From a virus, in the IMG/VR virus record IMGVR_UViG_3300008267_001031, positions 1 to 28,042 of that record: DNA of 28,042 bases; one strand, 5' to 3'. Positions 4,371 through 14,968 of this stretch are shown piece by piece. The stretch's first letter is position 1. Each line of letters starts with the position of its first letter. Position numbers and translations under genes: made by a program. The notes under the pieces were generated by a model. That model made no database searches and had not been told where the DNA came from. It worked only from the letters and a program-made list of their open reading frames with translations.

Positions 4371-4681
4371 TATATGCAGTTATTATACTAACCATAATGG
4401 TAGCCATATTAGGCTACCTAGTCTATGCTAACTACAAGAAAGCACAACGAGCTGCAGATTACTGTGAAGCTTATGTTAGATTTATCTCTGCACTATTTTT
4501 CAAATTCAACGATACAAGAGATCGTATGAAGGAAGTGGATCGCTTAGGAGCGTTTCAAGCAGACGATGAGGTGGGTTTTATTTTTAGAGAGCTAGACGAA
4601 TCAATTGAAGATTTATATGAATTTATTACAAAGTATGTCAACACAACAGAAACCGAAGAAGACAAGAAAGCCAAAGACTAA
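4367..4681 (+). CDS. Single-pass membrane-anchored protein (104 aa)
   Basis: The N-terminus (about 2-22, IYAVIILTIMVAILGYLVYA) is one transmembrane helix. The rest is a soluble helical domain with the segment GAFQADDEVGFIFRELDESI. I recall similar short membrane-anchored proteins near late genes of T4-like marine phages, but no function is known to me. The start is set by an ATGA overlap with the HD gene. The 3' end overlaps the late sigma factor gene by 47 bases if the latter begins at 4635. Confidence 0.6.
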   Translation: MIYAVIILTIMVAILGYLVYANYKKAQRAADYCEAYVRFISALFFKFNDTRDRMKEVDRLGAFQADDEVGFIFRELDESIEDLYEFITKYVNTTETEEDKKAKD

Positions 4682-5027
4682 AAGAATGTACTTCGGTCCG
4701 GAAGTTGATTTAGCGATCGTAGAGTATAATCAAACTATGGACTCACTTGAGCGAAGTAAGATTTATCAATATCAAATTAGACCCGCCTTTGAGAAGCTAG
4801 TAGAGAACATTATTCACACGTTTAAGTTTTACTACACTGCCGATCAATCCATGCAACAAATGCAGCATGAAGTGGTAAGCTTTCTAGTTGAGAAGCTTCC
4901 AAGATTTCAACAAAGCAATGGGAAAGCTTTCAGCTACTTTAGTATTGTAGCCAAAAACTATTGCATTCTAAAAAACAAAAACAACTACAAAAAGCTAACT
5001 AGTCATGACCGACTTGAGATTATTTAG
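4635..5027 (+). CDS. T4 gp55-like late-transcription sigma factor, N-terminal part (frame interrupted)
   Basis: The product resembles the sigma-70-related late-transcription factors of T4-like phages (T4 gp55), which direct host RNA polymerase to late promoters. After a Lys-rich leader it reads MYFGPEVDLAIVEYN, then a region-2-like core containing HEVVSFLVEKLPRF and GKAFSYFSIVAKNY (roughly residues 75-115). I chose ATG 4635; ATG 4686 (MYFGPEV) is an alternative that would avoid the overlap with the upstream gene. The frame stops at TAG 5025-5027, just where such proteins normally continue. The continuation is present in the -1 frame from 5018 to 5278, so the gene appears split by a missing base. 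Joined, the protein would be about 214 aa, near the 185 aa of T4 gp55. The interruption could be a sequencing error, a real mutation or, less likely, programmed frameshifting. Confidence 0.75.
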   Translation: MSTQQKPKKTRKPKTKRMYFGPEVDLAIVEYNQTMDSLERSKIYQYQIRPAFEKLVENIIHTFKFYYTADQSMQQMQHEVVSFLVEKLPRFQQSNGKAFSYFSIVAKNYCILKNKNNYKKLTSHDRLEII

Positions 5028-5278
5028 ATACACGAATCGATGACATATTCACAAAGCAGAGTGATCGAGTTTTAGCTTATGCAGTATTGCATTTATTCAA
5101 GACACGCGAGTCTATCGAACTATTCAATAAGAAGGCTTTATACATCTATGTGCGTGAAATGTCCAATGCAAATACTCAGCAGATAACAAAGATGGTTAAG
5201 TTTATGAAGGATAAATATAGGCTAATGTATAACGATTATTTGCACCTAGGTTATTTACCAAAAGACAAAGAGTATTAA
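5018..5278 (+). CDS. Late sigma factor, C-terminal part in the -1 frame
   Basis: From 5018 this frame reads DYLDTRIDDIFTKQSDRVLA and continues through SIELFNKKALYIYVREMSN to the stop at 5276-5278. The NKKALYIxxRE and NxxTQQITKMV segments are what I expect in the C-terminal half of gp55-like marine phage sigma factors, probably the DNA-binding part. No ATG opens it; the first usable start is TTG 5087, which would cut the conserved part. It directly continues the upstream frame if one base is restored between 5018 and 5024, for example TTT to TTTT in the ATTATTTAGATA stretch. The next gene starts on the last base of its stop (TAATG). Best read as the second half of the same gene. Confidence 0.65.
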   Translation, partial: DYLDTRIDDIFTKQSDRVLAYAVLHLFKTRESIELFNKKALYIYVREMSNANTQQITKMVKFMKDKYRLMYNDYLHLGYLPKDKEY

Positions 5279-5523
5279 TGTTAATTGCAATAAACAAAGA
5301 GCAACTTGTAGCACAACTGGAGCATCAAATAAAAATGTGGGAGGAGATAGGAGGAGGAGCTAACTATGATGCCTTTGAGTTTAATCCTAAGAAAATCGAT
5401 CAGCAACAACTGGTCGATTTAGGTTTTTATGAGAATCGTGATTCATGGATTGCAGGAGTGCAGATTAAAAAGTTAACTGAATACCTTAATGAGATTAAGG
5501 ATACTTCAAATATTCGTATTTGA
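5278..5523 (+). CDS. Hypothetical protein (81 aa)
   Basis: A small soluble, mostly helical protein with no recognised motif. Its ATG shares one base with the preceding stop (TAATG), so translation is probably coupled to the sigma factor gene. Its TGA lies only 4 bases before the next promoter-like element, making it the likely last gene of its unit. Function unknown. Confidence 0.55.
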   Translation: MLIAINKEQLVAQLEHQIKMWEEIGGGANYDAFEFNPKKIDQQQLVDLGFYENRDSWIAGVQIKKLTEYLNEIKDTSNIRI

Positions 5524-5526
5524 GTC

Positions 5527-5540
5527 TATTTATAAGAAAC
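5527..5540 (+). promoter_or_regulatory. Late-promoter-like element
   Basis: TATTTATAAGAAAC begins 21 bases before the ATG at 5548 and follows the upstream stop by four bases. It keeps the TATTTATA core of the recurring element but not the YTAAAAA extension, so the match is weaker than at 81, 14143 and 23947. It would drive the gene at 5548 and the hub module that follows. Confidence 0.4.
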
Positions 5541-5547
5541 ACAGTTT

Positions 5548-5892
5548 ATGGATAAGGATAGTTTATTGTTTGACGATAAGTCTTTTAGTGATCTGCTTCG
5601 GGACGTATATACTAATACGAAGAAGAAGGAAACACAAATTAACGGACTTATTGATCAGTTAAAGCCAATGATCAAGAGTATGACAGATGCTTCTGTAATG
5701 GTGCCTCTTGTGAAGGAATACCTCGAGGTATCTGTAAAGAATGATGACAACCTAGTTAGGCTGACTGCAATAATTCAACGACTACTGGTTACAGGAAGTA
5801 AGACAACTGCAGAAGGCGAGTTGGGATTAACAGAGGCTGAAAGGACGCAACTGCTATCTGAAGCGCAGGAACTAATGGATAAAACTAAGTAA
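5548..5892 (+). CDS. Helical hypothetical protein preceding the baseplate hub genes (114 aa)
   Basis: A soluble helical protein starting MDKDSLLFDDKSFSDLLRD. Residues about 25-90 form regular amphipathic helices with repeated Leu/Val spacing. I recall comparable short proteins just before hub genes of related marine phages, without an assigned function; a chaperone or minor virion role is possible. The start is supported by the promoter-like element 21 bases upstream. There is no Shine-Dalgarno sequence. The last base of the stop (TAATG) is the first base of the next gene. Confidence 0.55.
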   Translation: MDKDSLLFDDKSFSDLLRDVYTNTKKKETQINGLIDQLKPMIKSMTDASVMVPLVKEYLEVSVKNDDNLVRLTAIIQRLLVTGSKTTAEGELGLTEAERTQLLSEAQELMDKTK

Positions 5893-7013: not shown

Positions 7014-7979
7014 ATGTCAGGACCACCACCAATAGTACAAGCTGGCTTTGCAGCAGAATGCAAAGAGGTAGCAGATATGGTTGATAAGAACTACGAAAAG
7101 CTAGTACAAACCCTAGTATCAAGTGCTTTAACCTCTGCCGGAATCGAACCACGCATCCGTGTGACTACTTTAATGAAAATGTGTCAAAGCTTTGTAATCC
7201 CGCAAGTTCAAAAGTTTGAAGGAGGATGGGGAGATCACCCTAACGACTCCGGAGGACCAACAATGCGGGGTGTAATCTCATCTACGTTTCAAGGTAACTA
7301 CAATAGGTTATTTATTGAAATACCAAAAAAGGCAGGCCTAAATGCAATTGCAGTAAAAGCTGAAGCACTTGCTAAAAAGTATCCAAATGTACGAGGTGGC
7401 GATAGGCGAGGCGAGCACGTCAAGGGTGCGCTATATACGTTTAACACTAGTCATAAAGTAGCATCTCTATTTATTTGGAATGGCCTATCTAAGGCTGAAA
7501 CCGGATACCCTATTGCCGTAATGGCCGAGGATGCTTGGCTTGGTTACATACAATTTGAAATGTGCTGGGGTGGTGGAGCAGGATCGGTATTTGGTACCGG
7601 TAAGGCATCATACGATGGTGTTGCTAAGAAAAAGTATGGACGAGTTGCGATGGGTGCTAAGGGATGGGTAAAGTGGATATCGCAAACACTAGGACCATCC
7701 AAGACGCCAGCATTTGCTGTTGACTGCTTTGCATCTCAAGTCGATTTCTATGATAGGATTAGTCGTCCTGGAAGTAAGAATAACACATTTCGTAAGGGAT
7801 GGTTTAATCGCTTAATAAACTGGCCAACATCCGATTTGAAAATGTGTATTATTTTGAATGAAGTATTTAACAAAAACGTCAAAGGTATGTTTGAGTTTAA
7901 TGAGAAGGAGACTGAGTTTCTAACTCAAAAAGCTAAGATATATGAGTCAATGACTATAAATTACCCTACCGGAGGATAG
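7014..7979 (+). CDS. GH108-type muramidase (tail lysozyme/endolysin)
   Basis: The 321-aa protein has the signature of glycoside hydrolase family 108: FEGGWGDHPNDSGGPTMRGV at 68-87, with E69 the predicted catalytic acid and the NDSGG turn after it. This family cleaves peptidoglycan glycan strands. The C-terminal segment FYDRISRPGS...FRKGWFNRL (about 244-266) matches the peptidoglycan-binding domain that usually accompanies GH108. An unusually long insert lies between them (about 100-235), with NWPTSDLK and beta-rich parts after. There is no signal peptide or membrane segment. Its position between an OB-fold hub gene and a beta-helix-like gene suggests it acts as the tail lysozyme that opens the wall during injection, although a lysis role cannot be excluded. 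Confidence 0.8.
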   Translation: MSGPPPIVQAGFAAECKEVADMVDKNYEKLVQTLVSSALTSAGIEPRIRVTTLMKMCQSFVIPQVQKFEGGWGDHPNDSGGPTMRGVISSTFQGNYNRLFIEIPKKAGLNAIAVKAEALAKKYPNVRGGDRRGEHVKGALYTFNTSHKVASLFIWNGLSKAETGYPIAVMAEDAWLGYIQFEMCWGGGAGSVFGTGKASYDGVAKKKYGRVAMGAKGWVKWISQTLGPSKTPAFAVDCFASQVDFYDRISRPGSKNNTFRKGWFNRLINWPTSDLKMCIILNEVFNKNVKGMFEFNEKETEFLTQKAKIYESMTINYPTGG

Positions 7980-14303: not shown

Positions 14304-14537
14304 ATGGGCATGGCAGGAAATCAGTATGATGCAGAGGAAGAGTGGCCAGATATGAATGGAGGACCAATGACATCAGCACACGTTCCTCAAGCAGATCCAA
14401 GTAGCTTAATGAGCATGATGGACGATGAGTCACCATTACCAGCTTCTACTGGATATGGTGATCCAACTATGAACTTCGTAAAAGATTATTCAGCAGTAAT
14501 GAAAGCGGCCGATGCGCACGCTGGTGGAGGTAGATAA
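14304..14537 (+). CDS. Small acidic protein before gp25 (probably 5'-truncated by a frameshift)
   Basis: The visible frame gives 77 residues from ATG 14304, rich in Met, Asp, Glu and Pro, with no known motif. Coding character continues upstream in the same frame to about 14184, so the real protein very likely begins at ATG 14165 and is about 123 aa after correcting a single base. It lies where several T4-like phages have small baseplate genes, but nothing identifies it as gp53 or a PAAR tip protein. GGAGG lies before the next gene's ATG but also encodes the Gly-rich end of this protein. The last base of its TAA starts gp25. Confidence 0.5.
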   Translation: MGMAGNQYDAEEEWPDMNGGPMTSAHVPQADPSSLMSMMDDESPLPASTGYGDPTMNFVKDYSAVMKAADAHAGGGR

Positions 14538-14968
14538 TGGCAATTGAAGTACAAATAAACCCCTTAGATTTCGAACCCGATGTAGCCATTGGGCTTGACT
14601 TACCATTAGTAGGTTCTAATGGGGCTACCTTTAAGCTAAATTATCTATCGATAGATCAAGCCATTGCAAATGCTAAAAATCTATTACTAACAAACAAAGG
14701 TGAACGCGTGATGCAACCGGAGTTTGGATGCGATTTAAGAAAAGTTGTATTTGATAATATAACTGAGGAGATGGTTAATAAGATCGACCTAACTATCCGT
14801 CAAGCGTTTAGCTTTTGGTTACCGTACGTATTTATTAATGAGCTTATGGTAGAACCAAGTGAGGACAATAACCGAGTAAACATAACACTCTCTATAAGTT
14901 TAGTTGGCAATGAGGTGGATACAAGATCTATCCAGCTTGAGATCATAAACCAAGAACAGAATGGCTAA
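14537..14968 (+). CDS. 25: Baseplate wedge protein, gp25-like
   Basis: This 143-aa protein belongs to the GPW/gp25 family (T4 gp25, P2 gpW), which joins the inner baseplate wedge and starts sheath assembly. Family features are the ILSID-style AIANAKNLLLTNKGER segment at about 44-59, MQPEFGCDLRKVVFDN at about 61-76, and the following helix and strand ending in NITLSISLVG. Length is typical. The start shares one base with the preceding stop, and the 3' end overlaps the gp6 gene by eight bases. It would act together with gp6 in the wedge. Confidence 0.9.
   Translation: MAIEVQINPLDFEPDVAIGLDLPLVGSNGATFKLNYLSIDQAIANAKNLLLTNKGERVMQPEFGCDLRKVVFDNITEEMVNKIDLTIRQAFSFWLPYVFINELMVEPSEDNNRVNITLSISLVGNEVDTRSIQLEIINQEQNG

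Follow-up and report, generated by a model that had tools for sequence, protein, structure and literature searches.

An 88-base gap divides a sigma factor-like phage gene between two reading frames in an IMG/VR virus record

Sigma-70 and ECF factors combine a region-2-like N-terminal half with a variable linker and a C-terminal half resembling a helix-turn-helix (HTH) domain. The same arrangement is seen in a family of phage proteins whose sequences have diverged strongly from these factors and two of whose members are encoded by isolated phages. In Microcystis phage Mel-JY01 (WWT39502.1, 256 aa, positions 4947-5717 of locus L166) and Flavobacterium phage vB_FspM_immuto_2-6A (QQO91832.1, 232 aa, positions 4971-5669 of locus L167), the gene is a single intact open reading frame annotated as hypothetical, and a literature search on these two homologs returned nothing useful. 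A possibly related group is the T4 gp55 family, whose aligned proteins comprise 154-185 aa and have no detectable match to the C-terminal half of the phage family considered here, unlike the intact 243-aa protein described below. In addition, the gp55 genes of cyanophages and Moby adjoin gp47, not baseplate genes. The stretch of DNA analyzed in this work, referred to as the window (28,042 nucleotides, positions 1 to 28,042 of IMG/VR record IMGVR_UViG_3300008267_001031), contains a gene of this phage family. Its N-terminal half is homologous to WWT39502.1 and QQO91832.1, with an identity of about 45-50%, and its C-terminal half is still recognizable in both proteins (FRKKALYIYIREMT, YNKKAMYILIRE). 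As in the two isolated phages, the start of the gene overlaps the end of the upstream open reading frame. In the window, however, the gene is divided between two frames, very probably as the result of an 88-base deletion that has broken this copy, whether the deletion is an artefact or a real variant.

The upstream frame starts with the ATG at position 4635 on the plus strand and terminates at a TAG codon (5025-5027), giving a product of 130 aa. Positions 4635-5017 encode residues 1-127 of the intact protein, including the region-2-like domain, as judged by the identity to a sibling contig up to position 5017 and by the family alignment; positions 5018-5027 add a short out-of-register tail comprising the final three residues and the premature stop codon. 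The continuation lies in the -1 frame of the same strand, which is open from position 5018 to a stop codon ending at position 5278 and specifies the last 86 residues (about 158-243) with the HTH-like domain. This frame lacks a start codon of its own: the only common start codons before position 5170 are TTG (5087), GTG (5150) and ATG (5159), all of which are located within the conserved C-terminal domain. Our translations thus agree with the two-frame split described in an earlier note on this sequence. Inspection of the premature stop region by eye (CTT GAG ATT ATT TAG) likewise revealed no slippery heptamer of the type X-XXY-YYZ, as stated there. When used separately as queries against IMG/VR, the two pieces hit a single shared protein in the relatives, so that the split is not due to chance.

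The nature of the break becomes apparent from a comparison with the sibling contig IMGVR_UViG_3300008450_000606, which is 98% identical to the first piece (residues 1-129) and 100% identical to the 86-aa piece. In this contig, the two matched pieces are 84 bases apart and belong to one intact gene of 243 codons that starts at the same ATG. Blastn comparisons with loci L159, L081 and L001 showed near-identity on either side and a single gap in the sigma-like gene, with 88 bases of the sibling (positions 4546-4633 of its locus, L159) missing exactly between window positions 5017 and 5018. Since 88 bases correspond to 29 codons plus one base, the loss has the appearance of a one-base shift; it changes the frame, and translation ends three codons later. 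The earlier note was therefore right to posit one sigma-like gene split by a loss of sequence and to treat an error in the record as a leading reading, but the loss amounts to 88 bases rather than one. Similarly, its arithmetic for a fused product of about 214 aa is correct, although such a fusion would still be 29 residues shorter than the intact protein. The sibling carries the sequence TTGA at both ends of the gap, 90 bases apart, but a precise TTGA-to-TTGA join would have left two bases fewer than the window junction contains, making the join effectively blunt.

Apart from these differences, the two contigs are nearly indistinguishable over about 13 kb. Positions 1-1079 of the window show no mismatches to the sibling, and the aligned coding stretches between about 1085 and 12990 contain five base differences, all of them synonymous, which suggests that both lineages are otherwise equally functional. 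A second gap is found near position 1075 (1067-1085, corresponding to L159 529-615), where 66 bases are missing in frame; the 88-base deletion is thus not the sole difference between the record and its sibling. This gap spans a 5-base TACAA repeat and lies in a small open reading frame (71 aa in the sibling) without any relative in IMG/VR other than the sibling. Folding around both deletions predicted some pairing but nothing that would account for the break points. The junction pattern between positions 5017 and 5018 occurs once in the window's own record and is absent from all other viral contigs and genome contigs searched; among these contigs, the intact form of the locus was present in the sibling only, and a DNA search of phage records yielded no match.

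The missing segment can be placed within the protein by an alignment of 38 family members. In this alignment, the mean majority fraction is 0.70 for the N-terminal half and 0.63 for the C-terminal half, but only 0.29 for the deleted stretch (residues 128-156), and all 38 members possess a homologous segment of 24-34 residues at this position. The protein predicted by AlphaFold from the same alignment is helical, with a mean pLDDT of 77; confidence is low for residues 125-140, and residues 139-167 form a helix. In this model, the missing 29 residues comprise a variable linker together with the beginning of the helix that follows it, situated between the N-terminal and C-terminal domains.

Several lines of evidence suggest that the intact protein is probably a sigma factor whose N-terminal half is remotely similar to gp55. 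Matches to the ECF profile TIGR02937 (sigma70-ECF) were obtained for 15 of the 38 members (best E-value 1.3e-4) and matches to Sigma70_r2 (PF04542) for six (best 0.008), a signal of Sigma-70 family membership that is weak but repeated across members; the sibling protein alone falls below every family cut-off. One family member matches the PHROG late sigma family phrog_234. The top five Foldseek hits in the PDB are all sigma factors (WhiG, sigma32, sigmaS, SigK and domain 2 of SigA), with E-values of 0.4 or worse. When the family profile was compared with that of a gp55 alignment constructed in this work, the N-terminal half aligned in register over 112 columns (E-value 0.0046, probability 7.6%), as illustrated by the pair GKAFSYFSIVAKNY and KNPFAYFTQI, whereas T4 gp55 alone as a query gave no significant match. 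The C-terminal half weakly resembles TrpR-type helix-turn-helix proteins, the only matches returned by a sequence profile search of the PDB (best E-value 0.078). The gene is located upstream of a lysin gene (Glyco_hydro_108, 7014-7979) and a baseplate gene (gp25, 14537-14968). Given this position and the resemblance to gp55, a role in late transcription may be inferred, and the description of the gene as late and essential in the earlier note is plausible. The intact protein would probably bind host RNA polymerase and open the promoter through its region-2-like domain, with the HTH-like domain contacting DNA at the promoter or RNA polymerase. From the window copy, only the 130-aa N-terminal fragment would be made, and it would presumably be inactive.

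The conservation of the gene as a single frame is evident from its relatives. In the fetched IMG/VR loci, 166 reading frames match the intact protein, and a motif test found both halves in one frame in about 99 distinct sequences; the frames that escaped this test belong to full-length proteins in which the motifs vary, to fragments at contig ends or to the window. Among the fetched relatives, no record other than the window is split between the halves. According to the earlier note, close relatives with the same two separate frames would have spoken against its reading, but not one of them shows such a split. A relative in IMGVR_UViG_3300020042_008834 (L032, 3001-3585) is cut short by a nonsense codon, leaving 195 aa compared to 240 in its near relatives; this change is separate from the break in the window and lies farther downstream.

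A single-base sequencing error, as favored by the earlier note, would account for two overlapping frames that are one base out of register, but the sibling shows that 88 bases are missing, and the restored protein would still lack the segment found in all aligned relatives; we give this reading practically no credence. The idea that the gene undergoes a programmed -1 frameshift, or that the sigma factor is made of two polypeptides by design, gains some appeal from the location of the break in the linker between two domains. However, there is neither a slippery heptamer nor a conserved two-frame arrangement, the second half has no start codon ahead of its conserved domain, as would be needed for two genes with starts of their own, and in the sibling the gene is an ordinary uninterrupted frame. 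Such a mechanism is highly improbable, in line with the preference of the earlier note for an error in the sequence. It appears just as far-fetched that a real deletion has become fixed and that the phage makes its sigma factor in two pieces, separated exactly at the linker between the domains.

The origin of the deletion is a more balanced question. We slightly favor an assembly or chimeric-read artefact over a real variant, given that nearly all relatives have kept the regulator intact, the exception among those fetched being the nonsense allele in L032. Alternatively, the phage may have lost the 88 bases and thereby inactivated its sigma-like gene, surviving with the help of an intact phage in the same cell or of another sigma factor encoded elsewhere in its genome, a less probable but still serious scenario. 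The genome would then be a recent variant that is either non-viable or helper-dependent, and it should be kept in mind that the window covers only part of the phage genome, which bears on the existence of a second sigma gene elsewhere. This scenario is supported by the blunt join, which offers no long repeat for an assembler to collapse. With no microhomology and two bases in excess of the TTGA repeat, the junction is somewhat more in keeping with a molecule that really existed, or with a chimeric read, as a de Bruijn assembler is unlikely to invent it without a spanning read. Moreover, the in-frame gap near position 1075, with its 5-bp microhomology, resembles an ordinary deletion by illegitimate recombination, so that the lineage may truly differ by deletions. 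On the other hand, with only five synonymous differences separating the two contigs, the break must be very recent if it is not an artefact. The absence of the junction from the other contigs searched fits both origins alike.

Collectively, our findings reveal no new mechanism but an ordinary gene in a damaged or mis-assembled copy. In practical terms, they draw attention to a record whose copy of an otherwise conserved regulator is interrupted by an 88-base gap. They also identify a sigma-like family whose members in the isolated phages Mel-JY01 and immuto are listed as hypothetical; these two homologs might be annotated as candidate phage sigma factors that carry an additional HTH-like domain at the C terminus. 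Should the deletion prove real and stable, the phage would be living without a transcription switch, or with a split one.
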